Below are positions 21,388 through 35,639 of a DNA stretch of 35,639 nucleotides, in pieces. The translations under genes and the position numbers were made by a program. Under the pieces are notes generated by a model, which did not search any database, was not told where the DNA came from, and saw nothing but the letters and a program-made list of their open reading frames with translations. Each line of letters starts with the position of its first letter. The first letter of the stretch is position 1. Origin of the DNA: Pseudomonadota bacterium (GTDB taxonomy: Bacteria > Desulfobacterota > Desulfarculia > Desulfarculales > Desulfarculaceae); NCBI GenBank assembly GCA_018819925.1, contig JAHJPG010000068.1, positions 1-35,639 of the forward strand, written 5' to 3'.

Positions 21388-22272
21388 ATGGACCTTTCCC
21401 TACTGTTCGCGCAGGCCTTGAGTGGACTGTCCCGGGGCATGATGCTGTTCCTGATTGCCTCGGGACTGTCCCTCATCTTTGGGGTGATGAACATACTCAA
21501 CTTCGCCCACGCCACCCTTTGGCTGGTGGGCGCCTATGCCTGCTATACGTTCTGGTTCCTGCTGCAGAACCACGATTTCGCCGTATGGCTTGCCATCCCC
21601 CTGGCCGCCCTGAGCGTGGCCCTGGTGGGTTGGGTAATCGAGGTGGTGCTGATCCGGCGGGTCTACGAACGTGAGCTCCCCGAGCAGCTACTGCTCACCT
21701 ACGCCCTGGTCCTGATCCTGGGCGACCTGATCAAGATCACCTGGGGCGTGGACGACAAGCTCATCACCCGGCCGGCCATGCTGTCCGAACCCGTGTACCT
21801 GGCCGGGGTGCCCATCGACTCCTATTTCATCTTCGTGATCGCGGTGGGTTTCGCGGTGTATTTGGCCCTGTGGTGGTTCTTGCAGAAAACCCGTTACGGC
21901 CACATTGTGCGGGCGGCGGTGTTCAGCCGGGAGATGGTAAGCGCTCTGGGCATACCCATCCCCATTATCTACACCGGGGTTTTCGTGTTGGGGATATTCA
22001 TCGCCGGACTTGCCGGGGCCATCCAGGGCCCGGTGGGCTCGGTGACCCTGGGCATGGACATGGCGGTGGTGATCCAGGCCTTTTGCGTTGTGATCATCGG
22101 TGGTTTCGGCAGCCTCCCCGGCACCATGGTTAGTTCCATAATCGTGGGCGAGGTGTACGCCTTCGCCATACTGTTCTGGCCCGGCGGCGCTCTGGCGCTC
22201 ATATTCATTCTGACCGCCATCGTGTTGATCGTGCGGCCCTGGGGTCTGTTCGGCACCCCGCTACGGGCTTAG
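21388..22272 (+). CDS. Liv-type ABC transporter permease (LivH family)
   Basis: The 294-residue inner-membrane permease forms half of the translocation channel. The pattern is typical of LivH: LFAQALSGLSRGMMLFLIASGLSLIFG at the start (residues about 5-31), VMNILNFAHATLWLVGAY, and the conserved cytoplasmic loop FSREMVSALGIPI, with about eight hydrophobic helices. The ATG at 21388 follows the binding-protein stop by 10 bp; the next permease begins 11 bp after its end. It cannot act without the ATPases encoded downstream. Confidence 0.9.
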   Translation: MDLSLLFAQALSGLSRGMMLFLIASGLSLIFGVMNILNFAHATLWLVGAYACYTFWFLLQNHDFAVWLAIPLAALSVALVGWVIEVVLIRRVYERELPEQLLLTYALVLILGDLIKITWGVDDKLITRPAMLSEPVYLAGVPIDSYFIFVIAVGFAVYLALWWFLQKTRYGHIVRAAVFSREMVSALGIPIPIIYTGVFVLGIFIAGLAGAIQGPVGSVTLGMDMAVVIQAFCVVIIGGFGSLPGTMVSSIIVGEVYAFAILFWPGGALALIFILTAIVLIVRPWGLFGTPLRA

Positions 22273-22283
22273 GGGGGACGAGG

Positions 22284-23246
22284 ATGGGCAAGAAAAAGTG
22301 GGCCTGGGCGGGGGCGGTATTCGCGGCCTTGCTGTTGTTGCCGGCGGTGTTGGGCGAGTTTTGGGTGCTGGTGCTCACCGAGATTGTGATAATGGGCCTG
22401 TTCGCGGTGAGCTTCAACATGATCTTCGGCTACATGGGGCAGTTATCCTTCGGCCATGCCGCCTACTACGGAGTGGGCGCCTACACCACTGGCCTGTTGA
22501 TGGTCAAGGCGGGGCTGCCCCTGGCCCTGTGTCTGCCCTTCTCCATGATCATGGCCGGCGCGGTGGCCTTGGTGCTGGGCTATTTCTGCATACGCCTGAC
22601 CGGCATCTACTTCGCCATCCTGACCATGGCCTTCGGCCAGCTCATCTTCTACATCATCTTTCAGTGGTACAGCTTCACCGGCGGCGACAACGGCCTGCAG
22701 GGCATAAGGCCCCCGGCCATGCTGGACGGAGCTTGGTCCTACTATTACTTTGCCCTGCTGGTGGTCACCGCCGCGGTAGTCGTGATGTGGATCATCAGCG
22801 AGTCGCCCTTTGGCTACACCATGCGGGCGATCCGCGACAACCCCCAACGCACCCGCTTCGTGGGCGTGAACACCAAGAAGTACATGCTTATCAACTTCGT
22901 GGTGGCGGCCATGTTCGCCGGTCTGGCCGGCGGGCTCTGGGGACCCTTCAACCGCAGCATCTCCCCGGACTTGTGCAACTGGCACCAGTCCGGGGTGCCG
23001 GTGTTCATGACCATCATCGGCGGGCCCACCGGCTTCCTGGGGCCCTTGATCGGCTCGGTGATCTACACTTTCCTGATGGCCTTCGTCACCGGCTTCACCG
23101 AGTATTGGCCCCTGACCATCGGCATTATCATCACCATGGTGGTGCTGTTCATGCCCGGCGGGGTCTGGGGGTTGGTGGAGCGCTACGGCGCGGCCTTGCC
23201 GGCCCGGAAGGAGCCACCGGCCGACTCGGAGAGAGAGGCATCCTGA
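22284..23246 (+). CDS. Liv-type ABC transporter permease (LivM family)
   Basis: The 320-residue second permease has LivM landmarks: EIVIMGLFAVSFNMIFGYMGQLSFGHAA (about 33-60), a central TGIYFAILTMAFGQL block and the cytoplasmic coupling loop SPFGYTMRAIRDNPQRTRFVG near residue 175-195. It has roughly ten helices and ends in a charged tail. The ATG at 22284 has GGGGGGACGAGG directly upstream. One base separates its stop from the LivG-type start, indicating coupled translation. Confidence 0.9.
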   Translation: MGKKKWAWAGAVFAALLLLPAVLGEFWVLVLTEIVIMGLFAVSFNMIFGYMGQLSFGHAAYYGVGAYTTGLLMVKAGLPLALCLPFSMIMAGAVALVLGYFCIRLTGIYFAILTMAFGQLIFYIIFQWYSFTGGDNGLQGIRPPAMLDGAWSYYYFALLVVTAAVVVMWIISESPFGYTMRAIRDNPQRTRFVGVNTKKYMLINFVVAAMFAGLAGGLWGPFNRSISPDLCNWHQSGVPVFMTIIGGPTGFLGPLIGSVIYTFLMAFVTGFTEYWPLTIGIIITMVVLFMPGGVWGLVERYGAALPARKEPPADSEREAS

Positions 23247-23247
23247 G

Positions 23248-23997
23248 ATGAACGAATACATCCTCGATGTCCAGGGCCTGTGCAAGGCCTTCGGCGGCCT
23301 GCAGGCCACAACCGAGGTCAGCTACAGGATGGGCCAGGGCGAGTTGTCGGCCATCATCGGCCCCAACGGCGCGGGCAAAAGCACCTTCTTCAACCTCATC
23401 AGCGGCTTCCACCGCCCGGACAAGGGCCAGGTTCTCTTCAAGGGGGCGGACATCACCTCCTGGCCTCCATACCGCATCGCCCGCTTCGGCATGAGCCGCG
23501 CTTTCCAGGTGAGCAACATCTATCCCATGCTCACCACCTACCAGAACGTTCGCCAGGCCATCCTGGTGCAGCAGCGGCGCACCATGGACCTTTTCCGGCG
23601 GGCCGAGCACCTGGCCCGCAAGGAAACCGTGCAGCTGCTAGAGGTCACCGGCCTGAACGAACACCACAACGAGATCGCCGGCACCATGTCCCAGGGCGAC
23701 AAGAAGCGCCTGGAACTGGCCCTGGCCCTGGCCATAAAACCGGACCTGCTGCTGTTGGACGAGCCCACCGCGGGCATGTCCATGGAGGAGACCCACGCCA
23801 CCATGGAGTTGGTGGCCGACCTGAACCGGGAGATGGGGGTGACCATTCTTTTCACGGAGCACGACATGCCCGTGGTCTTCGGCTACGCGCGGCGCCTTAC
23901 CGTCCTGCACCAGGGCGCCCTCATCGCCGACGGTTCGCCGCAGGAGGTCAGGGACAATGAGGAAGTTCAACGCGTATACCTGGGAGAAGAGGTGTGA
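23248..23997 (+). CDS. Liv-type ABC transporter ATPase (LivG family)
   Basis: The 249-residue nucleotide-binding subunit energises uptake. Walker A is GPNGAGKST (about 37-45). The ABC signature is MSQGDKKRLELALALA, where the usual LSGG is replaced by MSQG, a variant common in LivG proteins. Walker B is LLLLDEPTAG and the switch His is in FTEHDM. The RAFQVSNIYPMLTTYQNV Q-loop segment is also typical. The gene starts one base after the LivM stop, and its stop overlaps the start of the second ATPase (GTGA). Confidence 0.9.
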   Translation: MNEYILDVQGLCKAFGGLQATTEVSYRMGQGELSAIIGPNGAGKSTFFNLISGFHRPDKGQVLFKGADITSWPPYRIARFGMSRAFQVSNIYPMLTTYQNVRQAILVQQRRTMDLFRRAEHLARKETVQLLEVTGLNEHHNEIAGTMSQGDKKRLELALALAIKPDLLLLDEPTAGMSMEETHATMELVADLNREMGVTILFTEHDMPVVFGYARRLTVLHQGALIADGSPQEVRDNEEVQRVYLGEEV

Positions 23998-24701
23998 TAC
24001 TGGAAGTTGACAAGGTTCACACCTACTACGGCACCAGCCACATCCTGTTCGATGTGAGCCTGTCCGTGGACCGGGGCGAGATCGTCTGCCTGCTGGGCCG
24101 CAACGGGGCCGGCAAGACCACTACCCTGCGCACCCTAATGGGGCTCACCCCCTGCAAATCCGGGAGCATCAAGTTCCACGGCCAGGAGATCAAGAGCCGC
24201 CCGCCCTACTACATCGCCCGCCTGGGCATGGGCTATGTGCCCGACAACCGCCTGGTGTTCCCGGACCTCACCGTGCGCGAGAACTTGGAGCTGGCCATAA
24301 AGGTGCCCAAGAAGTTCAGCGGCGAGCCCTGGAGCGTGGAGCGGGTCTACGAGCTGTTTCCCTCGCTCAAGAAGCTGGACCGCAACCTGGGCGGCTATCT
24401 GAGCGGCGGCGAGCAGCAGATGCTCACCGTGGGCCGCACCCTGATGGGCAACCCGGAGCTGATACTCCTGGACGAGCCGGTGGAGGGGCTCGCCCCGCTG
24501 GTGGTGAGGGAGTTCGCCTCCCGCATACGCTCGCTCAGGACCCTGGGCCAGACAATCCTGTTCTCCGAACAGAACCTGGCCTTCGCCCTGGCCGTGGCCC
24601 AGCGTGCCTACGTCATAGACCGGGGACGCATCCGCTTCCAAGGCAGCATGGAGGAGCTGGGGGCCAACGAGGAGGTAAAGCGCAAGTACCTGATGGTCTA
24701 G
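23994..24701 (+). CDS. Liv-type ABC transporter ATPase (LivF family)
   Basis: The 235-residue partner ATPase has Walker A GRNGAGKTT (about 34-42), the LivF-typical GMGYVPDNRLVFPDLTVRENL, signature LSGGEQQML and Walker B LILLDEPVEGLAP. Its start is GTG at 23994, overlapping the preceding stop, so it is translationally coupled. It is the last gene of the transporter. An acyl-CoA synthetase gene converges on it with only 18 bp between stops, leaving little room for an independent terminator. Confidence 0.9.
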   Translation: MILEVDKVHTYYGTSHILFDVSLSVDRGEIVCLLGRNGAGKTTTLRTLMGLTPCKSGSIKFHGQEIKSRPPYYIARLGMGYVPDNRLVFPDLTVRENLELAIKVPKKFSGEPWSVERVYELFPSLKKLDRNLGGYLSGGEQQMLTVGRTLMGNPELILLDEPVEGLAPLVVREFASRIRSLRTLGQTILFSEQNLAFALAVAQRAYVIDRGRIRFQGSMEELGANEEVKRKYLMV

Positions 24702-24719
24702 CGGCCGGCCCGTGGGCCC

Positions 24720-26354
24720 TCATTTGCCTTGCCGGGCCAACTCCCTCTGGCGCAGTTCGTTGCGCTTTATTTTGCCGGTGGCGGTCATGGGCAGCTGGCT
24801 GACGAACTCCATTTGGCGCGGATACTCGTGGGCGGCCAGGCGGGTCTTGACGAACTGCTGGATGTCCCGCTCCAGGGCCTGGTCCTGGGCCACCCCGGGC
24901 TTGGTCACGATGAAGGCCTTGACCACCTCGCCGCGCACCGGGTCCGGCGCGCCGATGACCGCCGCCAGGGCCACGCCGGGATGCTTGATGAGGCAGTCCT
25001 CGATCTCCGAGGGGCCGATGCGGTATCCGGAGCTGGTGATCAAGTCGTCCTTGCGGCCCACGAACCAGAAGTATCCCTGCGCGTCCTTTTTGGCCAGATC
25101 GCCGAACAGGCACCAGTCCTCAATGAACTTATCCGCGGTGGCTTGAGGGTTTTGCCAGTACTGCAGAAACATCACCGGGTCCGGCCGGAGGCAGGCCACC
25201 TCTCCCACCTCGCCCGGAGGCAGCGGCCGGCCTTCGGGGTCCACCACCTCCACCCGGTGGCCGGGCACCGGCCGGCCCATGGAGCCCGGCCGCACCTCCA
25301 TCAACTCGGCGCAGTTGCTGAGAACCAGGTTGCACTCAGTCATGCCGTAGAACTCGTTGATGGTCAGCTTCATCGCCTCGCGGCCCCAGTCCAGAAGTCC
25401 CGCGCCCAGGGTTTCGCCGCCGCTGCCGATGGAGCGCATCGCGTAGTCGTAGCGCTCCCAGGGCCGTGGCACCTGGCGCATCATCTTAAGGGCGGTGGGG
25501 GGCATGAAGGCGTTGCGCACCCCGTACTTGGCCAACAAGTGGAAGGCCTTTTCCGGATCGAACTTGCGCGCCCGGTGGGCCAGCACCGGGATGCCGAAGT
25601 GCCAGGAGGGCAAGAGAGCGTCCAACAGGCCACCGGCCCAGGCCCAGTCCGCCGGGGTCCAGAAGAGGTCGTCGTCCTGAGGGAAGAAGTTTTGGGGAAA
25701 CTGCACCCCGGGCAGGTGGCCCAGCAGGGTGCGGTGGGCATGCAGGGCTCCCTTGGGCGGCCCGGTGGTGCCCGAGGTGTAGATGAGCAGGGCCGGGTCC
25801 TCGGCCGAAGTCTCCACCGGGGTGAAGCTGGCCGAGGCCTGGTCCAGGGCCGCCCAAAAGTCCACCACCCCGGCCGGGACCTTGCCCCGGGCCTGCACCA
25901 CGGTGGTCAACTCGGGCAGGGCGTCCTTGATCTCCATGACCTTGGGCAGGTTGGCCTCGTCAGTGATGATGGCCCGGGCCCCGCTGTTGCCCAGGCGGTA
26001 CTCCAGGGCCTCGGGCCCAAAGAGGGTGAACAGGGGCACGGCTATGGCCCCCAGCTTGTAGATGGCCACATGGGCCAGGCCGGCTTCCACGCACTGGGGC
26101 AGCAGGATGCCCACCCGGTCGCCACGTTTGACGCCCTGGGCGGCCAGAAGGTTGGCCAGACGGTTGGAGAGCCGCATGAGGTCCCAAAAGGTGTATTTCT
26201 CCACCTGCCCGGACTCGTCCTCGAAGATCAAGGCCAGGCGGTAGCGCTGGCCGGCCCACTTGTCGCAGACGTCCACCCCCATGTTGAAAAAGGCGGGAAT
26301 CCGCCACTGGAACGCGCCGTAAATCTCCTCGTAGGTCTGTTCTCTGGAAAGCAT
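24720..26354 (-). CDS. AMP-forming acyl-CoA synthetase (acetyl/medium-chain acyl-CoA synthetase-like)
   Basis: The 544-residue adenylate-forming ligase activates a carboxylic acid with ATP and CoA. Motif A3 is LIYTSGTTGPPKGALHAH (about 191-208), A5 is INEFYGMTECN (about 337-347), the hinge region is GRKDDLITSSGYRIGPSEIE, and the C-terminal catalytic Lys is in MTATGKIKRNEL. The overall form, with SWHFGIPVLAHRARKFD and MPPTALKMMRQV, resembles acetate or medium-chain acyl ligases more than long-chain or benzoate ligases, though substrate choice is not certain. The ATG at 26354 has GGAGGAACC directly upstream. It converges on the transporter and is divergent from a hydroxyacyl-CoA dehydrogenase, suggesting it activates the imported acid. 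Confidence 0.88.
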   Translation of the reverse strand: MLSREQTYEEIYGAFQWRIPAFFNMGVDVCDKWAGQRYRLALIFEDESGQVEKYTFWDLMRLSNRLANLLAAQGVKRGDRVGILLPQCVEAGLAHVAIYKLGAIAVPLFTLFGPEALEYRLGNSGARAIITDEANLPKVMEIKDALPELTTVVQARGKVPAGVVDFWAALDQASASFTPVETSAEDPALLIYTSGTTGPPKGALHAHRTLLGHLPGVQFPQNFFPQDDDLFWTPADWAWAGGLLDALLPSWHFGIPVLAHRARKFDPEKAFHLLAKYGVRNAFMPPTALKMMRQVPRPWERYDYAMRSIGSGGETLGAGLLDWGREAMKLTINEFYGMTECNLVLSNCAELMEVRPGSMGRPVPGHRVEVVDPEGRPLPPGEVGEVACLRPDPVMFLQYWQNPQATADKFIEDWCLFGDLAKKDAQGYFWFVGRKDDLITSSGYRIGPSEIEDCLIKHPGVALAAVIGAPDPVRGEVVKAFIVTKPGVAQDQALERDIQQFVKTRLAAHEYPRQMEFVSQLPMTATGKIKRNELRQRELARQGK

Positions 26355-26389
26355 GGTTCCTCCTGGCGGCGAGAGGCGTGGGATCCGGG

Positions 26390-26417
26390 CGGGCAGGGTA
26401 TTGCAAGATTATGCCCC
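26390..26417. promoter_or_regulatory. candidate bidirectional sigma-54 promoter around TTGCAA
   Basis: The palindromic TTGCAA at 26401-26406 is a perfect -12 element on both strands. A GG lies at exactly the -24 distance on each side (26391-26392 for plus, 26415-26416 for minus). The rest of each -24 box is poor. It would serve the divergent ligase and dehydrogenase genes. Confidence 0.35.
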
Positions 26418-26494
26418 AAGACCCGGCGCCAGGGGAAGGGGCAGGCGCGTCCGGCGGCATCGATCGCCGCCGCGCGGAAAGGAAGGGCCTGAGC

Positions 26495-27412
26495 ATGGAA
26501 CCGATTCGCTTCGACGGCCAAGCGGCCATCGTCACCGGGGCCGGGGCCGGCCTGGGCAAGAGCTACGCCACCTTCCTGGCCGCCCGGGGGGCCCGGGTGC
26601 TGGTCAACGACCTGGGCAGCGGCTACGCGGACCAGGAGCGTTCGGCCGGCCCGGCCCAGCAGGTGGCCCGGGAGATCGTGGCCTCCGGCGGACAAGCCGT
26701 GGCCAACGCCGACAGCGTGGCCGATTGGGAGGGGGCCCAACGCATGGTGGAGCAGTGCCTGGCCGCCTTCGGCCGGGTGGACATAGTTATCAACAACGCC
26801 GGCATCCTGCGAGACCGCTCCTTCCTCAAGATGCCGGTGGAGGACTTCCAAATGGTTTTGGGAGTGCACCTGCTGGGCGCCATTTACGTGACCCGGGCCG
26901 CCTTCCCGGCAATGAAGGAGCAGGCCTACGGGCGCATCGTGCTCACCACCTCCACCAGCGGCCTGTTCGGGGTCTTCGGCCAGACCAACTACTCGGCGGC
27001 CAAGCTGGGACTGGTGGGCTTCATGAACGCCCTGAAACAGGAGGGGGACCGCTACAACATCCTGGTCAACGCGGTGGCGCCACTGGCCGCCACCCGCCTG
27101 AGCCGTCCCACCGGCTTCTTCCCGCCGGAGATGGAGCCGCTGCTGCGGCCCGAGTTGGTCACGCCCTTGGTGGCCTGGTTTTGCAGCCAGCGGTGCGGCG
27201 TCAGCGGGGATATCGTGGAGGCCGGCGGAGGATACTTTGCCAAGGTGCAGATCATGGAAGGTCAGGGGGTGCGCTTCGAGCCTCGGCGCGAGCTGACCCC
27301 GGAGATGGTCGCCGAGCGCTACGGCCAAATAAGCGACATGAGCGGAGCCCGGCCCTTTGACTCGGCCAACCAGCAGATGCAAACGGCCCTGGCACCGCTG
27401 TGGGGAAAATAA
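26495..27412 (+). CDS. 3-hydroxyacyl-CoA dehydrogenase, SDR of the MFE-2/HSD17B4 type
   Basis: The 305-residue oxidoreductase matches the dehydrogenase domain of multifunctional enzyme type 2, which oxidises (3R)-hydroxyacyl-CoA to 3-oxoacyl-CoA with NAD. Visible are TGAGAGLGKSYA (residues about 14-25), VNDLGSG (an Asp favouring NAD), NNAGILRDRSF, the active-site Ser in TSTSG and QTNYSAAKLGL with the Tyr-Lys pair. Its C-terminal segment beyond the SDR core (SGDIVEAGGGYFAKVQIM) is typical for this group. The ATG at 26495 is preceded by GGAAGG; an upstream in-frame start at 26378 would add 39 residues not found in the family. It is divergent from the ligase by 140 bp. Confidence 0.87.
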   Translation: MEPIRFDGQAAIVTGAGAGLGKSYATFLAARGARVLVNDLGSGYADQERSAGPAQQVAREIVASGGQAVANADSVADWEGAQRMVEQCLAAFGRVDIVINNAGILRDRSFLKMPVEDFQMVLGVHLLGAIYVTRAAFPAMKEQAYGRIVLTTSTSGLFGVFGQTNYSAAKLGLVGFMNALKQEGDRYNILVNAVAPLAATRLSRPTGFFPPEMEPLLRPELVTPLVAWFCSQRCGVSGDIVEAGGGYFAKVQIMEGQGVRFEPRRELTPEMVAERYGQISDMSGARPFDSANQQMQTALAPLWGK

Positions 27413-28255
27413 GAGACATCCCACCCAGCGGTTCCAGATGACCGGCCTAATCGGAGGCGTGGGGAATATCTGCAAGGCATCGGCGTTGTTTGAAACAACT
27501 GTGCCTCTTTTGTGCTTCCCAGGTGTCCCCAAACGCCCCTACGTGTTCAAATCCATGTTTATGCCCCCATCCCAGCCGATACCAATCAGCTTCCTGTAGC
27601 CTACGGAATAGAGGTGACTGGTTTTTTGCGGGTCGCCGCGCACGGCGGCCACTCTCTTTGCGTTCAATTCAAAAACCTGACCAGCGCCATAAACTCATCA
27701 AGGGCCAGTCTACGGAGTAAAGGCTGGCATCCATGATGATCAACTCCCGCAACAGGCTCAAATGGATCGGCCAATCATCGCATCGCAACTACACCAATTC
27801 CACTCGTAACGACGAAGAGGCAGTAAAGATTGGGTTGAATAAAGGAATCGCAGCCATGTAAACCGCATTTTGAAACATTTCCATTGCTGGCAGCAGGGGG
27901 CTGGGAAGCACAATACCATACCGGCTCCTTCAAAAGCTTCAGCCATCCGGCCACCAGTTGCCGTTATTCCATATATTGCTTACATTTTAGCTTACGCCCT
28001 GCACACCTCCCACAACCACCATTTTATTTTTGTCATTTAATTCAGTTGGTTTTGTCATGTTTATCAACCATTACAGATAATAGTTGACAAATGCGTATCC
28101 TTATTATAATAATTTATATTGTATATGATATTGTGCGCAATTTAAGTTACGGATGGCTCGCCGCAGATTGATCACATAGATGCCTTTCGGTGGCGACGCC
28201 CCTTTTGCATGAGAAATTTTCCAACCATCTCCAACCGTCTGATGAGGTAGCATTC
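27413..28255. other. long intergenic region at the composition change, with a promoter near its end
   Basis: More than 800 bp without a recognised gene. Short open frames (for example 27733-27861 plus and 27758-27946 minus) have no family features. The sequence shifts from GC-rich on the left to AT-rich by about 27800. The left part may be decayed coding or mobile DNA; nothing could be named. Confidence 0.5.
28084..28112 (+). promoter_or_regulatory. sigma-70-like promoter for the synthase/thiolase unit
   Basis: TTGACA at 28084-28089 is followed after 17 bp by TAATAA (28107-28112), or after 15 bp by TATAAT (28105-28110). It lies about 145 bp before the start codon in AT-rich DNA. ATTG-TGCG-CAAT just downstream (about 28131-28142) could be an operator for the GntR regulator, which is speculative. 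Confidence 0.5.
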
Positions 28256-29722
28256 ATGATCGGCATACAAGCTTTCGGTGGCTACGTGCCGCGATACCGT
28301 CTGGACCGGCAACTAATTTACCAGTCCATGGGCTGGATGGCTCCGGGGAACAAAGCCCACTGCAGAGGAGAAAAAGCGGTGGCGGGGTTTGATGAGGACA
28401 GCATTACCATGGCCGTTGCCGCCAGTCTGGATGCGATGTGCAATTGCGACCGATCAAGGATCGATTCGCTTTGTTTCGCATCTACATGCTTGCCGTTTAA
28501 AGAAAGGCTGAACGCAGGGATTATAAAAACGGCGCTGGGGCTAAAGAACGAAATTTCCGCAGCCGATTTCAGTAGCGGCCTGAGATCCGGCACCACCGCT
28601 CTGCTCCATGCGTTGGACAGCATCAAGGCCAAGCGTTCCAGATCTACATTGCTATGCGCTGCGGACAACCGGCTGGGCAAGCCGGCTTCTCCACAGGAGA
28701 TCATATTCGGGGATGCTGGCGCTGCATTTCTCGTTGGCGATGAGAACGTCGTTGCCGAGTTCAAAGGATCTTACTCAACCACCCACGATTTTGTGGATCA
28801 TTACCGCGGCGAATTCGCCAAATACGACCGTCAGTGGGAGGATCGGTGGATTCGCGACGTGGGATTGACACATTTGATTCCCGAAGCGTTCAATGGGTTT
28901 CTTCAAAAGTACGGCAAGCAGATAAGTGAATACAATAAAATAGTCTATCCTTGTCACGACAGGACCGCTCGAAAAACAATCAACAATCTGATGGGCATCG
29001 CTCCCGAAATGGAGCAGGATAATTTGCAGGAAAGAATCGGTGACAGTGGCAGCGCACATGCACTGGTAATGCTGGTAAAGGCCTTAGAAAATGCTGTTGC
29101 CGGAGAGAGAATCCTGGTTTTAAGCTTTGGCAACGGGTGTGACGTTTTGGACTTCGAGGTGACCTTTGCCATCGAACACCCATCGGCAAGCAAGCATATC
29201 TCCGGCTGGTTAAATGATCGGATCGAACTGAACAACTACACCAAATACCTTGTGTGGCGCAATATTTTGCCAGTTGAAGAAGGGTTGCGCTCGGAAGAGG
29301 ATCTGTGGACGCGCTGGTCGTTGCTGTGGCGAAAACGGAATGAAATATTGGCATTGCGCGGAACTCGCTGTAAGCAATGCGGTACAGTTCAATATCCGCC
29401 TCAAAGAGTGTGCGTCAATGACGAATGTGGTGCTATCGATGAGATGGAAGAGTATGGATTTTCCGACAAAACCGGAATTATTGCAAGCTACACGGGAGAC
29501 AATCTCGCGTCATCTTTCAATCCGCCGGCCATTTATGGACAGATTGAGTTTGAGGGCGGTGGAAAGTACATGTTCGATTTCGCTGATTGTGAATTGGATG
29601 CGCTCTCGACCGGCATGCCGGTGAAGATGAGTTTTCGAAAAAAATACCACGATCCCAGAAGGGATATTTCCGGCTATTTTTGGAAAGCCGTCCCATCAAA
29701 GGAGACTACAACAGATGGCTAA
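28256..29722 (+). CDS. HMG-CoA-synthase-like protein fused to a C-terminal DUF35 (zinc ribbon/OB) domain
   Basis: The 488-residue fusion has a thiolase-fold HMG-CoA-synthase-like part (MIGIQAFGGYVPRYRLDR up to about residue 340) followed by a DUF35 acyl-CoA-binding domain whose zinc ribbon uses Cys372, Cys375, Cys386 and Cys391. In archaea, HMG-CoA synthase, DUF35 and thiolase are separate proteins of one complex; here two are joined and a thiolase follows. By motif comparison the catalytic Cys position is Leu109 (FSSGLRSGTTAL) and the Glu of the SES motif is replaced (ASTCLPF), while the His in PCHDRTARK remains. It is therefore unlikely to be a normal condensing enzyme and may be a scaffold or altered-activity partner. 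The ATG at 28256 has GAGG upstream; the GTG at 28190 adds an unrelated 22 residues. Confidence 0.8.
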   Translation: MIGIQAFGGYVPRYRLDRQLIYQSMGWMAPGNKAHCRGEKAVAGFDEDSITMAVAASLDAMCNCDRSRIDSLCFASTCLPFKERLNAGIIKTALGLKNEISAADFSSGLRSGTTALLHALDSIKAKRSRSTLLCAADNRLGKPASPQEIIFGDAGAAFLVGDENVVAEFKGSYSTTHDFVDHYRGEFAKYDRQWEDRWIRDVGLTHLIPEAFNGFLQKYGKQISEYNKIVYPCHDRTARKTINNLMGIAPEMEQDNLQERIGDSGSAHALVMLVKALENAVAGERILVLSFGNGCDVLDFEVTFAIEHPSASKHISGWLNDRIELNNYTKYLVWRNILPVEEGLRSEEDLWTRWSLLWRKRNEILALRGTRCKQCGTVQYPPQRVCVNDECGAIDEMEEYGFSDKTGIIASYTGDNLASSFNPPAIYGQIEFEGGGKYMFDFADCELDALSTGMPVKMSFRKKYHDPRRDISGYFWKAVPSKETTTDG

Positions 29723-30920
29723 AGGAATCAGAGATAAAATAGCCATAATAGGTATGGGATGCACACGGTTCGGCGAACGTTGGGAATCGGGTGCAGAGGA
29801 CTTGATGGTGGAGTCTTTCACTGAGTGCCTGGCAGATGCGGGCATCGAACGAAAGGAAATCCAGGCGGCATATCTAGGCTGCTACAACGACGAGGTCAAC
29901 ATCGGGAAGTCTGCGGTTCCATTGGCAAAGACGCTGAAATTGCCCTTTATTCCCGTAACACGTCTTGAGAACTACTGCGCCACGGCGACGGAAGCCTTTC
30001 GTGCAGCCTGCTATGCTGTGGCATCCGGTGCCTATGACATTGCTTTGGCGCTTGGCGTCGAAAAGCTGAAGGATGCCGGATATGGCGGCCTGCCCGGAGG
30101 AGCCGGCGCTGGTGTAGATGCGTTCATGGCGGGAGCCAACGCCACAGCCCCCGGGGCTTTTGCCCAGTTGGCAACAGCGTATGCAGCCAAGCATGGCATC
30201 ACCATGGAACAGATCAAGCATGCGTTAGCCCATGTTTCCGTCAAGAGCCATGCCAACGGCGCTCTGAATAAAAAGGCCCATTTACGCAAGGTGATTACCG
30301 AGGAGCAGGTCCTGGCAGCACCGATGATTGCCTATCCTCTCGGACTTTTTGATTGCTGCGGAGTCAGTGACGGTTCGGCTGCCGCCATCGTCACGACCAC
30401 CGACATTGCACGTGCGATTAAACCCAAAGAGGAAATCATATCGGTCAAGTCCATTCAGATCGCGGCGACATCCGGCGAAGAGTCTATTTCGACCAATTGG
30501 GATGGTTCATACTTTGCTACCACCCGGAGAGCAGCCATGCAGGCCTACGAAGAGGCTGCCATCAAAAATCCTCGGCAGGAGATTAGCATGATGGAAGTGC
30601 ATGACTGCTTTTCCATCACAGAATTCGTCACAATGGAGGATCTTTTCATCTCTCCTGAGGGTAGCGCATGCGATGATGTGCTCAATGGTCTATTCGACCT
30701 CAACGGGGGTATACCCTGCCAAGTGGACGGGGGGCTGAAATGTTTCGGCCACCCTGTCGGCGCCTCCGGCTTGAGGATGCTATATGCCATGTACGAGCAG
30801 TTACTGGAAAGAGTTCCTGAAGAAAGGAAAGTGCATAATGCCCGGTTGGGATTGACCCACAATTTAGGAGGAAGACCACATCAGAATGTCGCAGCTATTT
30901 GCATCATTGGCAGGGGTTGA
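29715..30920 (+). CDS. thiolase family protein (SCP-x/acetyl-CoA acetyltransferase-like), DUF35 partner
   Basis: The 401-residue enzyme is predicted to cleave or form 3-oxoacyl-CoA. The nucleophile Cys88 sits in LENYCATATEAF, an active-site His is in MEVHDCFS and the GHP motif is in CFGHPVGASGLRM. The C-terminal active-site region has THNLGG in place of the classical second Cys motif, as in SCP-x-type and DUF35-dependent thiolases such as BbsB of anaerobic toluene breakdown. Its ATG at 29715 overlaps the preceding fusion gene by 8 bp, so the two are co-translated and probably form one complex. It closes the operon; IS remnants follow about 150 bp later. Confidence 0.85.
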   Translation: MAKGIRDKIAIIGMGCTRFGERWESGAEDLMVESFTECLADAGIERKEIQAAYLGCYNDEVNIGKSAVPLAKTLKLPFIPVTRLENYCATATEAFRAACYAVASGAYDIALALGVEKLKDAGYGGLPGGAGAGVDAFMAGANATAPGAFAQLATAYAAKHGITMEQIKHALAHVSVKSHANGALNKKAHLRKVITEEQVLAAPMIAYPLGLFDCCGVSDGSAAAIVTTTDIARAIKPKEEIISVKSIQIAATSGEESISTNWDGSYFATTRRAAMQAYEEAAIKNPRQEISMMEVHDCFSITEFVTMEDLFISPEGSACDDVLNGLFDLNGGIPCQVDGGLKCFGHPVGASGLRMLYAMYEQLLERVPEERKVHNARLGLTHNLGGRPHQNVAAICIIGRG

Positions 30921-31073
30921 ACATTATAAGTATGCTTCGCTGTCTTTCGCCTGCCGTAAATCATAGTTTCATTTTATCAGGAGAAAATAGTTCCAGAGCT
31001 AGCAGTGCTATAGTGTTATACGTGGAACGTTTTCATTGGCAATAAAAATAAGTATGCATACCATTATATTTTT

Positions 31074-31289
31074 CAGGAAGCCAGGTTAAGGGACATAGTG
31101 AGGTTCTTTGAACTGGACTTGGAGGCCAATAAAATCGCCCTATCAATCAGATTAAGCCGGAAGACAATTAATCGCTACTTAGTCTTGATCAGGCAACGCA
31201 TTGCTGAACATTGTGAGCAAAAAACTGTGTTGCATGGGGATATATTGTCTGATAATATTTATTTTGGGGAAAGGCAAGTAATCACTGTC
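31074..31289 (+). pseudogene. IS1595-family transposase N-terminal fragment
   Basis: The frame reads RDIVRFFELDLEANKIALSI, then RLSRKTINRYLVLIRQRIAEHCEQ and IYFGERQV. This matches the helix-turn-helix and the start of the catalytic domain of IS1595-type transposases (compare DESYFGARRV), with the usual Asp-Glu disturbed. It breaks off at 31290, where an IS3 tip begins, so only about 70 residues remain. Confidence 0.7.
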
Positions 31290-31348
31290 TGAAGTTCCCC
31301 CTATTTACTGGACACCTTATTAAGCGAGTATATTTCGCGAGAGAGGTG
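31290..31348 (+). repeat. IS3-type left end (inverted repeat plus 34-bp leader repeat)
   Basis: The tip TGAAGTTCCCCCTATTTACT followed by GGACACC is a typical IS3 terminal repeat and mirrors the right tip at 2674-2699. Bases 31315-31348 repeat 4201-4234 with about three mismatches. The element is cut off at 31349 where IS6110-like DNA begins on the other strand. Confidence 0.65.
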
Positions 31349-31880
31349 CTACCGCTCGGGGTTAGCCTGGCGGGCCTTGTGCTCATAGTAGCTCGACGGG
31401 GTGATCGGCAATACCGCGCAGATCGGCTCGACCCCGTGACTAAGACGATGGGTGTCAATGAAAGACGCCATCACCTCCGTAGGCGGTCGAGCTCCGCCTG
31501 TGCAAAAAAAGCCGACGTCTTACGAAATGTCTCATTGGCCCGCCGAAGCTGCCGGTTTTCCCGCTCAAGCTGTTTGAGACGCTCACGCTCCGATGTGGTC
31601 AGGCCAGCCCGGATACCCTGGTCACGCTCGGCTTGATGCAGCCAACTGCGAAGGGTCTCGCCAGTGCAGCCGATCTTGGCCGCAATGGAGCAGATGGCTT
31701 GCCACCAGGATTGGTACTCATCCTGGTGCTCCAAGAGAATCCGCACCGCCCGTTCCTTAATAGGAGAGCCTTGCATTTGTGCTCCCGATTAGACAACAAC
31801 CTCTGGAGAGTATCTGATTTGCTTAGGCATGACTCCCTCCTCTCAAGTAATGGAGTCCCCGGCAGTCCCGGGGAGGTTCA
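31349..31880 (-). mobile_element. truncated IS6110/IS51-subgroup IS3 element with intact left inverted repeat
   Basis: On the minus strand the element starts at 31880 with TGAACCTCCCCGGGACTGCC and then GGGGACTCC, close to the IS6110 end. It contains orfA (31471-31830) and the first 40 codons of orfB (31349-31471), which start in the overlapping TGATG and read MASFIDTHRLSHGVEPIC and PSSYYEHKARQANPER. The rest of orfB and the right end are missing; the sequence passes directly into another IS3 end. Confidence 0.8.
31471..31830 (-). pseudogene. IS3-family OrfA with an in-frame stop-containing insertion
   Basis: The ATG at 31830, with GGAGGG upstream, begins MPKQIRYSPEV as in IS6110-like OrfA. 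About 14 extra codons including a TAA follow, and then the normal frame resumes with [31 protein letters not shown] and the leucine-zipper [18 protein letters not shown]. An internal ATG at 31776 could still give a 101-residue product. It binds IS ends when functional; here no complete transposase can be made. Confidence 0.75.
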
Positions 31881-31907
31881 TAAATAGCGGAGAGATGTAA
31901 GAAGATT

Positions 31908-31936
31908 TTTACATTTAACCTAATTTACCGTATACT
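31908..31936 (+). promoter_or_regulatory. sigma-70-like promoter of the GntR regulator gene
   Basis: TTTACA (31908-31913), a 17-bp spacer and TATACT (31931-31936) stand about 80 bp before the regulator start codon, just outside the IS left end. Confidence 0.6.
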
Positions 31937-32016
31937 AATAGATTAATGTATTATCCTTGAAAAAAGATAAATGAGCGGACAGCCGCCTAGAACCATCAAA
32001 TCAGAGTAGGTAACCG

Positions 32017-32703
32017 ATGCCCAAGAACACAACTAAGAGGACGCCCTTCCAGGTCGAAGTAGACCGAGTGCTCAAGCAGCTTAGAAAAGAGATATATGCG
32101 GGCAAGAGGATGCCCAATGAGCATCTTGTTGAAAAAAAATTGGCGGACACATATAACGTCACGCGCATGACTATTCGACAAGCATTGAGCATACTTGCCA
32201 ATGATGGCTTGGTAGAAATCGAACCTTACAAGGGCGCTAGTGTGGCGGCACTTACCATCGACCGGATCGTGGAAGGCTATCAGGTCGTGTCTATGTTGGA
32301 GGGACACGCTGCTTACTTGGCCGTTGAGCATATCACAAAAGAAGATATTAAAAAGCTCAAAGACATCGTGAATATGCAGGGCAATGTCGAGGAAGGAGAC
32401 GCTAAGACTTGGCAGCTGCTTAACCAGAAGTTTCACAAAATAATCAACCAAAGATGTGGGAATGAAAGTATCATCCAAATGATTCGACAGCACGCTCAGT
32501 TTACCAACCATTGGTTTCTTGTATATGCAAACCCTAGTTTTGACAGGGATGTCCGGGCCCATGAAATAATTCTTCAGGCCCTGGTCGAGCGTAATGGTGA
32601 AAAGGCAAGGATTAATATGGAAAAACATATCACCGCTGTAGTCGAGCGGATGGTTGAGCATATCCAGAAAAATGTACCCATAGGCATGTTCCGTTCAGTG
32701 TAG
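32017..32703 (+). CDS. GntR-family transcriptional regulator, FCD subfamily
   Basis: The 228-residue regulator has an N-terminal winged helix (residues about 10-75; LVEKKLADTYNVTRMTIRQALSILANDGLVEIEPYKGASV) and an all-helical FCD effector domain from about 85 to 220. The FCD part contains FHKIINQRCGNESIIQMI and a late HEIILQAL and MEKHI; the spaced His residues are probable metal ligands. Such proteins usually repress acid- or acyl-CoA-use genes and release DNA on binding a carboxylate. It is surrounded by acyl-CoA genes, so it may control the synthase/thiolase unit upstream and the hydratase/dehydrogenase genes downstream. The ATG at 32017 has AGTAGG upstream. Confidence 0.87.
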   Translation: MPKNTTKRTPFQVEVDRVLKQLRKEIYAGKRMPNEHLVEKKLADTYNVTRMTIRQALSILANDGLVEIEPYKGASVAALTIDRIVEGYQVVSMLEGHAAYLAVEHITKEDIKKLKDIVNMQGNVEEGDAKTWQLLNQKFHKIINQRCGNESIIQMIRQHAQFTNHWFLVYANPSFDRDVRAHEIILQALVERNGEKARINMEKHITAVVERMVEHIQKNVPIGMFRSV

Positions 32704-32736
32704 ATGTATATGGAACATACCTACAGGTATTTAATG

Positions 32737-32765
32737 TGTCTTAGTCACTAATTTGTCTTAGTCAC
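32737..32765. repeat. two direct 12-bp repeats TGTCTTAGTCAC
   Basis: Copies at 32737-32748 and 32754-32765 have a 17-bp period and partly shared flanks (TAATT/GTAAT). They lie between the convergent regulator and hydratase genes. Two copies only; function unknown. Confidence 0.5.
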
Positions 32766-32854
32766 GTAATGGCCGGATATATATGAGCCAGCCGCCGGCG
32801 TAACAGGGTGGTTCACTTCGACGCCTACCACGATCTTGCTCTTATAGAGTGAAA

Positions 32855-33631
32855 CTACCTTCCACTAAAATTTGGTTTTCTTTTCTCATTGAAGGAGGCG
32901 ATTCCTTCCTGATAGTCCGCACTCCGCTTGCAAACCATCTGTAGCACTGTTTCCATCGAGATCGCCTCGTTATAACTTAAATTCATAGATTGCCTTAAGG
33001 CTCTTTTTGTTGCGCCGAGAGCGATTGGCGACTTGTCAATTAGCCGTCTTGCCCAAGCATAGGCTTCCTCCATGAGTTTTGCGTCCGGGACCACTTTGTT
33101 GGCGATCCCCAATTGCCTACAGCGCTCCGCAGAGATACGCTCAGCTTCAATGGCGAGCTGATAGGCTCTATGGTAGCCGATCGCCCGGCTAAGCCACCAA
33201 GTCATCCCCCCATCGGGAATCAGGCCGATGGTACTAAACGCTTCAAGGAAAAACGCGCTCTCTGCCATTACAATAAGATCGCAGTTCATGACAAATGCGC
33301 TGCCGACACCCACCGCCGCTCCGTTCACTGCGCAAATGATAGGCTTTTCCATCTCCGCCATCGCGACCAATACTGGCTTATAGGTATTGTCTATGTGCTC
33401 GCCTATGATTTCCGTATTGAAAGGACTCGGCTTTTTGATATCGGCTCCGGCGGAAAAACTCTTGCCTGCACCGGTTAATATTATGACGCTGACTGTGCTG
33501 TCGACAGCAATCCGGAAAACCGTTTCAGATAATTCTGCAATGAGTTGGCGGTTGAATGCATTACGCCTATCCGGTATATTCAGGGTAATCGTAGCGATAC
33601 GATCTTTATTTTCTACTAATAGACATTCCAC
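32855..33631 (-). CDS. enoyl-CoA hydratase/isomerase family protein, PaaG-like
   Basis: The 258-residue crotonase-fold protein ends KRSADYQEGIASFNEKRKPNF, very like PaaG, the ring-1,2-epoxyphenylacetyl-CoA isomerase. The oxyanion-hole segments GKSFSAGADI (about 56-65) and NGAAVGVGSA (about 103-112) are present. The two Glu residues of true hydratases are absent: GSA replaces the first, and the second aligns to Phe in EAFSTIGLIPDGG. The following Asp in IPDGG corresponds to the PaaG catalytic Asp, so isomerase or double-bond shift chemistry is more likely than hydration. The start is GTG at 33631, with GGAGG 12 nt upstream, rather far. Confidence 0.82.
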   Translation of the reverse strand: MECLLVENKDRIATITLNIPDRRNAFNRQLIAELSETVFRIAVDSTVSVIILTGAGKSFSAGADIKKPSPFNTEIIGEHIDNTYKPVLVAMAEMEKPIICAVNGAAVGVGSAFVMNCDLIVMAESAFFLEAFSTIGLIPDGGMTWWLSRAIGYHRAYQLAIEAERISAERCRQLGIANKVVPDAKLMEEAYAWARRLIDKSPIALGATKRALRQSMNLSYNEAISMETVLQMVCKRSADYQEGIASFNEKRKPNFSGR

Positions 33632-33976
33632 AATGAATTCTTACCTCCAGCATTTGCCATGAGGCCATTTATGGAGCAGTTTCCAGAATATCATAGATAA
33701 ACCATGATGAAGAAGCGGGACGAATAATGGCCAGGTGTCACCACGTAATCAATAAAATAACTAGAGGTGCTTGCCATTTACAATGCCATGTTTACCACAC
33801 ATATTGGATCTGCGTACATTACCTCATAGTTTTAAATTCTGCCGTGTCCGGCTAGTTTTCGATAGGTTTAGTACCCATAAATAGGCTAAAGTTTGTCAAG
33901 TATGAAATACCCAGAATGGAAGATAACTTTTATCAAACGATGGTACATTTAGGAATACGAATATTTCCGGGAGTAC
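33632..33976. other. AT-rich intergenic region
   Basis: About 345 bp between two minus-strand genes. A TTGACA (minus, 33899-33894) lacks a good -10 at 16-18 bp. No gene or clear terminator was recognised. Confidence 0.45.
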
Positions 33977-34846
33977 CTATTTGCGATTGCCGTCCGGATC
34001 GTATTGATACCATCCTTTGCCAGCTTTTCGCCCAAGATGCCCTGCACGCACCTTACGCCGCAGTATCGCGGGTGCATAAAAACGGAGATCATTTTCTTCC
34101 CGGTAGACATTGTCGTAGGCCATCAATGAAACCTCCAGCCCCACGAGGTCGCCAGTTTCAAAAATTCCCATTTTTCGCCCAAATGCTAGCCTCACCCCCC
34201 TGTCGATATCCTCAGGCGTGGCGACTCCTTGTTCCACCAAGCGCATTGCTTCTATGTTGGACACCATGTTTATCCGGTTCAAAATAAAGCCGGCAAGATC
34301 CCTATTAACCATTATCGGCTCTTTCCCGATTCGCCGGACGAAATCCGCGCCATATTGAAAGGCGCGGTCGCTGGTACTGATTCCGCGGATGACCTCCACT
34401 GCCTTAAGCATTGGAACCGGGTTAAAAAAATGAAGGCCAATAACATTTTCTGGATACCGGGTAACGGCTGCGATCTCGGTGATCGGTATCGCGGAGGTGT
34501 TGGATGCCACAATGGTGTCTTCACGGATGATTCCTTCCAGGGATTGAAGCACCTGGTGCTTTACTTCAATCGCTTCAAAGACGGCCTCGATTATCAATTC
34601 GGCATTTGTTACCGCATTGTAGTCGACGGAAAAAACAATTCTGTTCATGATGGTGTCGATATTTTCTGTAAGTTTTCCCTTATTAAACAATTTGGAAACA
34701 GACCAATGAATTTGTTCCATAGCATGATCTAGGATTTCCTGGGATAGATCACACAGTGCTACAGAGATGCCATTGGTGGCGCAAACTTGTGCAATACCGC
34801 TTCCCATGGCGCCGGCACCGACTATGCCTATCTTATTTATATCCAT
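33977..34846 (-). CDS. 3-hydroxyacyl-CoA (3-hydroxybutyryl-CoA) dehydrogenase
   Basis: The 289-residue NAD-dependent enzyme oxidises L-3-hydroxyacyl-CoA to 3-oxoacyl-CoA. It has the Rossmann motif GIVGAGAMGSGIAQ (residues about 6-19), the substrate region NTSAIPITEIA and the catalytic His in GLHFFNPVPMLKAVEVI. The C-terminal helical domain has the usual DLVGLEV segment. The length matches Hbd. The ATG at 34846 is preferred, with AAAGGAA upstream; a GTG at 34867 adds seven residues before the fold. It lies 35 bp downstream of the enoyl-CoA hydratase stop, so the two form a hydration-oxidation pair in one transcript. Confidence 0.87.
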   Translation of the reverse strand: MDINKIGIVGAGAMGSGIAQVCATNGISVALCDLSQEILDHAMEQIHWSVSKLFNKGKLTENIDTIMNRIVFSVDYNAVTNAELIIEAVFEAIEVKHQVLQSLEGIIREDTIVASNTSAIPITEIAAVTRYPENVIGLHFFNPVPMLKAVEVIRGISTSDRAFQYGADFVRRIGKEPIMVNRDLAGFILNRINMVSNIEAMRLVEQGVATPEDIDRGVRLAFGRKMGIFETGDLVGLEVSLMAYDNVYREENDLRFYAPAILRRKVRAGHLGRKAGKGWYQYDPDGNRK

Positions 34847-34881
34847 TTCAAGTATTCCTTTCTCCACATTCCTGGATGACG

Positions 34882-35639
34882 TTATCTGCCTTGAAATTGT
34901 GGTTTTCGTTTCTGTAGAAAGGCGTTGACGCCTTCATTCTTGTCTGCGGTGCCGCAGACTTCCGCGAATAGGCGGCTTTCAAACTCAAGGCCTTCCTGAA
35001 GAGTGTGCTGCATATTTGTTGCTGATGCCTTTTTAACTGCTCGAACTGCTACGGGGCCGTTGTCTGCAATTTTTTTAGCAATCGTAAAAGCAGTTTCATG
35101 AAGATTTTTCAAGGGCGAAACCGCCTGCACTAGCCCGATCCGTAACGCATCTTGGGCGTTGATATGTTGGCCTGTCATCAAAAGGCAATTCGCCCATCCG
35201 GGCCCGACAATTCGGGGCAGCCTTTGGGTCCCTCCGGCTCCGGGAATAATTCCCAGCCCTACCTCGGGCAGGCCCAGGCGGGCATGGTCGGCAGCAACCC
35301 TGATGTCGCAGCACAGCGCCAGTTCCAGGCCACCTCCCATGCAGATACCATTGATTGATCCGATTACGGGTTTTTCAAAGGCAGCCACGCCTTCATAGAA
35401 ATCCCGGATTTTCAAAATGCGTTGCAGGCCGCTATCATGGTCGAGTTCCAAAAGGCTCGGGACGTCCGCGCCCGCGGCAAAGAATTTATCCCCAGCTCCT
35501 GTAATAATCAGCGCCCGAACGGCTTCGTTTGATGATATTTCTGCTAATCGCATCAGGAACTCGTCTTTCAGTTCTTGGCTCAAGGCGTTAGCAGGTGGGT
35601 TACAGAGAGTGAAGACGCCAACATGATCGATGATTTCAA
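34882..35639 (-). CDS. enoyl-CoA hydratase (partial, runs off the right edge)
   Basis: At least 252 residues are visible; the start codon lies beyond the window. The frame continues to the edge as EIIDHVGVFTLCNPPANALS, so the internal TTG at 35583 is not the start. Both catalytic Glu residues of true crotonases are present, in CMGGGLELALCCD and LPEVGLGIIPGAGGTQRLPR, and the oxyanion-hole GDKFFAAGADV precedes them. The C-terminus KNEGVNAFLQKRKPQF is standard. It should hydrate 2-enoyl-CoA to 3-hydroxyacyl-CoA, the substrate of the following dehydrogenase. Confidence 0.88.
   Translation of the reverse strand, partial: EIIDHVGVFTLCNPPANALSQELKDEFLMRLAEISSNEAVRALIITGAGDKFFAAGADVPSLLELDHDSGLQRILKIRDFYEGVAAFEKPVIGSINGICMGGGLELALCCDIRVAADHARLGLPEVGLGIIPGAGGTQRLPRIVGPGWANCLLMTGQHINAQDALRIGLVQAVSPLKNLHETAFTIAKKIADNGPVAVRAVKKASATNMQHTLQEGLEFESRLFAEVCGTADKNEGVNAFLQKRKPQFQGR

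Follow-up and report, generated by a model that had tools for sequence, protein, structure and literature searches.

A synthase-like/DUF35 fusion protein lacking synthase catalytic residues is paired with a thiolase in Desulfobacterota and on degradative plasmids

Introduction

Contig JAHJPG010000068.1 of a bacterium of the Desulfarculaceae (phylum Desulfobacterota) carries an open reading frame that resembles an HMG-CoA synthase (HMGS) joined to a DUF35 protein, and a thiolase gene follows it. The synthase part appears to be devoid of its catalytic residues. This raises the question of what such a protein does beside an intact thiolase, and whether the two form one functional unit. The window (the whole stretch of DNA that was analyzed) has a length of 35,639 nt.

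The fusion open reading frame and its thiolase partner

The features of the gene pair are as follows.

28256–29269, + strand: HMG-CoA-synthase-like domain of the fusion, residues 1–338; catalytic Cys, Glu and His replaced (HMGS models, alignments)
28484–28486, + strand: codon of Thr77, at the general-acid/base Glu position (Glu82 of the archaeal enzyme)
28580–28582, + strand: codon of Leu109, at the catalytic Cys position by alignment (Cys114 of the archaeal enzyme)
28949–28954, + strand: codons of Pro232 (catalytic His position) and Cys233
29354–29428, + strand: rubredoxin-like zinc ribbon of the DUF35 part, Cys372/375/386/391 (zf-ChsH2 match)
29468–29638, + strand: OB fold of the DUF35 part (OB_ChsH2_C match; match to the 6esq_E profile, 3.5e-17)
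29715–30920, + strand: thiolase (NF004810/PRK06157), 401 aa; Cys88, His296, Cys298 and His346 intact

The fusion open reading frame starts at ATG 28256, which is preceded by GAGGT, or at GTG 28190, and ends at 29722 (+ strand). Its length is 488 aa from the ATG. An earlier note on this DNA had described an HMGS-like/DUF35 fusion overlapping a thiolase gene by 8 bp, and the two reading frames (28256–29722 and 29715–30920, same strand) are as described.

Residues 1–338 display a similarity to HMG-CoA synthases that falls short of both curated cut-offs (NF003274, 190 bits against a cut-off of 244; TIGR00748, 135 against 353). For the fusion, AlphaFold gave a model of moderate quality (pLDDT 62). 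In this model the synthase part (residues 1–325) aligns to 6ESQ chain I and to PhlA with Z of about 30, and it is predicted to have the synthase fold of the thiolase superfamily.

The DUF35 part shows a Cys4 zinc ribbon followed by an OB fold, as in DUF35 proteins (zf-ChsH2 and OB_ChsH2_C, matched at P0001 residues 389–483). The OB_ChsH2_C score of the window copy, 24.7 bits, is just below the Pfam cut-off of 27.1; the related locus L063 is above it. All four zinc ligands (C372/C375/C386/C391) are present, and the zinc cysteines are kept in 71–73 of 74 aligned fusions.

The thiolase scores 637.5 bits with NF004810 (NCBIfam PRK06157; cut-off 403). A residue check found its Cys88 intact, as it did the zinc ribbon, in agreement with the earlier note. 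The nucleophile Cys88, His346 of the GHP motif, and His296 and Cys298 of the HDC motif are invariant in all 65 partners compared. The motif in the window thiolase is HDCF, as in the archaeal thiolase. The BbsB model (NF053628) gives 117 bits against a cut-off of 750, which places the protein outside the BbsB family. The AlphaFold model of the thiolase (pLDDT 37, from a shallow alignment) is unusable.

The synthase site

The Methanothermococcus thermolithotrophicus synthase (M. thermolithotrophicus, 6ESQ chain I) served as reference for the catalytic positions, and 74 non-redundant fusions from Desulfobacterota, Proteobacteria, Actinomycetota and one haloarchaeon were aligned. Motif comparison had earlier put Leu109 at the Cys and Thr at the Glu; both assignments hold against this reference, and Pro232 at the His position is added. 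The Cys position is occupied by Leu in 41 members, Gln in 12, Ile in 8, Val in 4 and others (Thr among them), and in none by Cys. At the Glu position there is Thr in 69 members and Ser in 4; at the His position, 46 have Pro and 2 have His. Cys233, one residue beyond the old His position, is found in 52 of the 74 and is absent from the proteobacterial and actinobacterial members. Residues D46-E47-D48, R197, G262 and G294 of the synthase part are invariant. Because Thr77 is conserved and Cys233 is common, the pocket may have taken on a new role.

A reactive Cys at the nucleophile position, which the earlier note had named as evidence against its reading, was found in none of the relatives examined, fused or unfused. 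This includes the unfused or more synthase-like relatives at loci L121–L125, L086 and L087. Unfused three-gene versions (DUF35, thiolase, HMGS-like) are seen at L121:314–2961, L125:2569–5182 and L087:5046–7635, and their HMGS-like proteins are Cys-less. A search of the phylum with TIGR00748 for a Cys-bearing ancestor gave no protein above the cut-off in 99 genomes; the best copies examined, whether standalone or fused (L121–L125), are again without the Cys. No HMGS above the model cut-off was found in the window genome. Judged from the aligned sequences the loss is not specific to the window locus, all homologues examined being Cys-less. As the catalytic residues are intact in the thiolase and missing from the synthase part, catalysis appears to be retained in one partner only, throughout the family.

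Pairing and distribution

Of 395 genomes of the phylum Desulfobacterota that were surveyed, 107 have the fusion and 132 a member of the thiolase family, the match in 110 of the latter being roughly as strong as the curated cut-off requires. Both are present in 104 genomes, the fusion only in 3, the thiolase only in 6, and neither in 282 (Fisher p = 1e-83, a value that ignores relatedness and is descriptive only). Adjacency was checked in the 85 listed Desulfobacterota fusions with at least 40% identity. The thiolase lies downstream on the same strand in 84 of these, with a gap of 60 bp or less in 52, and the single unpaired fusion is at a contig end. In the four thiolase-only genomes that were opened (of six), the thiolase is at, or a few hundred bases from, a contig edge. 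The pairing in relatives, on which the earlier note had made its reading depend, is thus well documented, and the co-occurrence together with the adjacency in 84 of 85 rules out a chance association.

Both genes are also found together on plasmids of Sphingomonas, Variovorax, Azoarcus, Niveispirillum, Sphingobium, Sphingopyxis, Rhodococcus, Mycobacterium and Streptomyces. In Haloterrigena the thiolase gene is ahead of the fusion, and Halomarina has separate genes for the synthase-like, DUF35 and thiolase proteins. The window genome has three fusion–thiolase pairs (contigs C64, C107 and C129). A methylmalonyl-CoA-mutase-type large subunit (L053:11151–12806) directly adjoins the third pair, on contig C129.

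Relationship to complexes of known structure

A profile of the fusion family was compared with solved structures and gave PhlA (7e-50), archaeal HMGS (3e-45), MucA (2e-28) and archaeal DUF35 (3.5e-17). PhlA is thus the best solved sequence match to the synthase part.

PhlABC (PDB 5M3K, 5MG5; related form 9SKH) shares with the window pair an HMGS-like subunit without Cys and Glu, a DUF35 protein and a Cys88 thiolase. It differs in being encoded by three genes and in carrying out a biosynthetic Friedel-Crafts acylation. The absence of Cys and Glu from PhlA has been reported, as has the finding that Cys88 of PhlC is acetylated and required and that activity requires all three subunits (PMC6392133). 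PhlA had been termed inactive already in a 2010 paper on DUF35 (PMC2954200). MucABC of Streptococcus macacae (PDB 9VBO, 9VBT) likewise has a Cys-less HMGS-like subunit in complex with a thiolase-like subunit, but it belongs to secondary metabolism and is distant in sequence from the fusion. The layout of these two systems, in which a Cys-less HMGS-like chain accompanies a DUF35 protein and a thiolase that has its Cys, is present at the window locus with the DUF35 on the same chain.

The archaeal thiolase/HMGS/DUF35 complex (6ESQ) has the same three folds as the window pair. Among solved structures, the one closest to the window thiolase is the thiolase of this complex, and the complex also supplies the best DUF35 match. 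Unlike the window pair, it has an active synthase (Cys114/Glu82/His), consists of three separate subunits and functions in mevalonate biosynthesis. The benzoylsuccinyl-CoA thiolase BbsA-BbsB (PDB 7PXP) combines DUF35 with a catabolic thiolase but is without a synthase-like part. An acetone cluster described in another paper also includes a DUF35 protein and a thiolase, with no synthase part. The archaeal complex and BbsAB were the precedents cited in the earlier note; the closest, PhlABC and MucABC, were missed, and so were the relatives extended by SDR and SCP2 domains that are described below. Open-licence papers on benzene and Desulfococcus catabolism do not mention the fusion family; it may have been described elsewhere.

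Genomic contexts

In Desulfobacterota, Proteobacteria and Actinomycetota the neighbors of the pair are acyl-CoA dehydrogenase, hydratase, short-chain dehydrogenase (SDR), CoA ligase and CoA transferase genes. In one subfamily the chain is longer, about 910 aa, and consists of HMGS-like, DUF35, SDR and SCP2 parts (Pfam-checked in L063). Such extended chains (L063:4080–6812, L062, L064–L071) are found beside a thiolase and an MFE-2-like gene, the latter composed of hydratase, MaoC, SDR and SCP2 domains. Fusions of DUF35 to thiolase-superfamily, SDR, SCP2 and hot-dog domains were noted in 2010 (PMC2954200).

The window has the following features around the pair.

26495–27412, + strand: SDR, upstream, a separate gene; about 50% identical to the SDR domain that is fused in relatives
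31471–31776, − strand: IS3-type transposase orfA-like remnant, between thiolase and regulator (from reading of the sequence)
32017–32703, + strand: GntR/FCD regulator (domain match)
32855–33631, − strand: enoyl-CoA hydratase/isomerase (domain match)
33977–34867, − strand: 3-hydroxyacyl-CoA dehydrogenase (domain match)
34882–35583, − strand: enoyl-CoA hydratase (domain match)

The closest paralogue of the 3-hydroxyacyl-CoA dehydrogenase at 33977–34867 (62%) adjoins a second fusion–thiolase pair, on contig C129. The beta-oxidation island proposed in the earlier note is borne out in part, with two enoyl-CoA hydratases, this dehydrogenase and the regulator downstream of the pair; the enzymes are however on the opposite strand, and the insertion sequence remnant lies between. 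Since the upstream SDR is a separate gene in host-like, high-GC DNA, its link to the pair is conjectural. The extended chains of relatives, the MFE-2-like neighbor and the SDR identity suggest that the unit is tied to 3-hydroxyacyl-CoA oxidation and thiolysis in a peroxisomal-type beta-oxidation. The likeness to the peroxisomal-type proteins (MFE-2, SCPx) lies in the SDR and SCP2 that are fused to the synthase–DUF35 chain of relatives; the window chain differs in having neither SDR nor SCP2.

The GC content is 0.47–0.54 from position 27453 to 35639 compared with 0.61 upstream, and GC3 is 0.51–0.58 compared with 0.87–0.90. The nearest relative, genome G358, has 90% identity over positions 21953–27452 and diverges beyond. 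This suggests that segment 27453–35639 is a recently acquired island, with a chimeric contig as a possible alternative. A search for a tRNA integration site found none.

The window fusion (28190–29722) has an unusually long branch in the tree. It shows 12 private changes at columns that are invariant in its 25 closest relatives, twice the count of the next member, and these include G107S and K110R, which flank Leu109. The window copy may thus be specialized or drifting, and with drift a possibility the paralogue on C107 is better suited to experiments.

A possible further example comes from the estrogen edc cluster of Novosphingobium tardaugens, where an “HMG-CoA synthase” (EGO55_13555) adjoins a thiolase (EGO55_13550). 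No function was assigned to EGO55_13555 by the authors, who judged a condensation or HMGS reaction to be senseless there (PMC7793797). Novosphingobium sp. ES2-1 has the edc gene order of that paper at its locus L078, and the counterpart gene there is a fusion with Leu at the Cys site and Thr at the Glu site. From gene order and annotation, EGO55_13555 and EGO55_13550 may correspond to the fusion–thiolase pair.

Proposed role and alternatives

The two genes probably encode a degradative thiolase with the thiolase/DUF35/HMGS-like architecture, in which the fusion is the non-catalytic half and the thiolase cleaves bulky 3-oxoacyl-CoA. The fusion would be translated just ahead of the thiolase and coupled to it. 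Its synthase-like part would be a pseudo-synthase and its DUF35 part a bridge; scaffold and bridge, separate subunits in PhlABC and in the archaeal complex, would here be one chain. The chemistry would be carried out by the thiolase (Cys88/His346/HDCF), which would cleave a branched, alicyclic, aryl or steroid-derived 3-oxoacyl-CoA by thiolysis and release acetyl-CoA or propionyl-CoA together with a shortened acyl-CoA. The quaternary structure would be set by the pseudo-synthase and DUF35 parts, which probably also contribute to the CoA/acyl chamber. Fusion and thiolase probably work as one enzyme. A physical complex, the direction of the reaction, the class of substrate and the role of the pocket are what we infer here. 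The earlier note had offered a scaffold, a CoA shuttle or a new enzyme as roles for the synthase fold. By homology to PhlA a scaffold role is well supported; the pocket may be purely structural, shuttle CoA or have a new chemistry. Against a pure scaffold is the conservation near the old site of Thr77 and, in most members, Cys233, which a scaffold would not need.

A wider role is conceivable, though on balance doubtful: a bacterial beta-oxidation machine of the peroxisome type may be built around the fusion as its hub, with the emptied pocket acting as a channel through which the thiolase receives 3-oxoacyl-CoA from an SDR/SCP2 3-hydroxyacyl-CoA dehydrogenase, either tethered or associated.

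It is unlikely that the remodeled pocket is a second active site with a new chemistry (e.g. acyl-CoA hydrolysis, isomerization or acyl transfer) based on Thr77 and often Cys233. The frequency of these two residues and the six invariant residues of the synthase part are in keeping with such a site, but Cys233 is gone in two of the bacterial groups, as noted above, and the Cys position is variable with no fixed residue. In addition, the Cys-less PhlA takes no catalytic part itself in acyl transfer, and substrate contacts in PhlABC come from PhlC residues only (PMC6392133).

The pair might also run in the synthetic direction, as an acyltransferase of the PhlABC/MucABC kind that yields a C-acylated product. 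Apart from the archaeal synthase, no solved structures are closer relatives than PhlA and MucA, and PhlC has the same active Cys yet performs acyl transfer, so that an intact Cys is no proof of thiolysis. This direction is nevertheless quite improbable. PhlA and MucA form their own clade apart from the fusions (support 0.995, in a tree with one Cys-bearing sequence), the HDCF of the archaeal thiolase is kept whereas the PhlC active site has Tyr298, and the neighbors are acyl-CoA dehydrogenases, hydratases, 3-hydroxyacyl-CoA dehydrogenases and CoA ligases.

There is only a slight chance that the thiolase-like partner is an Ltp2/Sal-type retro-aldolase, with the fusion acting as a ChsH2/Shy DUF35 hydratase. 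Pairing with DUF35 and steroid contexts such as the Novosphingobium ES2-1 plasmid would fit, but that plasmid has a separate pair of lipid-transfer protein and DUF35 for this role. Moreover, Sal uses Tyr302/Cys304 of a YDCY motif (PMC12329534), whereas the window thiolase has HDCF and falls outside the Ltp2/Sal type, and Cys88, His346 and HDC are invariant in the 65 partners.

Finally, an active HMG-CoA synthase, or an unpaired remnant of the mevalonate pathway, with misaligned catalytic residues is hardly credible in spite of the fold and the distant similarity to HMGS: separate alignments all put Leu at the Cys position, the Cys is missing in all relatives, and an active synthase is ruled out by Leu109/Thr77/Pro232 and by scores below every HMGS cut-off.

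Significance

The fusions are found in databases under the names “OB-fold domain-containing protein”, “3-oxoacyl-ACP synthase III C-terminal domain protein” and “hydroxymethylglutaryl-CoA synthase”, and the thiolase partners as “acetyl-CoA acetyltransferase”. Such annotations are no basis for inferring a mevalonate pathway. For the edc “HMG-CoA synthase”, the pair offers a testable answer to a published puzzle. If the hub proposal is true, a former catalytic site would serve as a transfer chamber for bulky substrates in several phyla. On the reading favored here, that of a degradative thiolase with a non-catalytic half, the two genes would form a single conserved unit of catabolism; 104 of the 395 sampled genomes of the phylum have both, as do degradative plasmids of Proteobacteria and Actinomycetota. 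The synthase partner without the Cys, which is known from a pair of biosynthetic complexes, would thus be widespread in catabolism.
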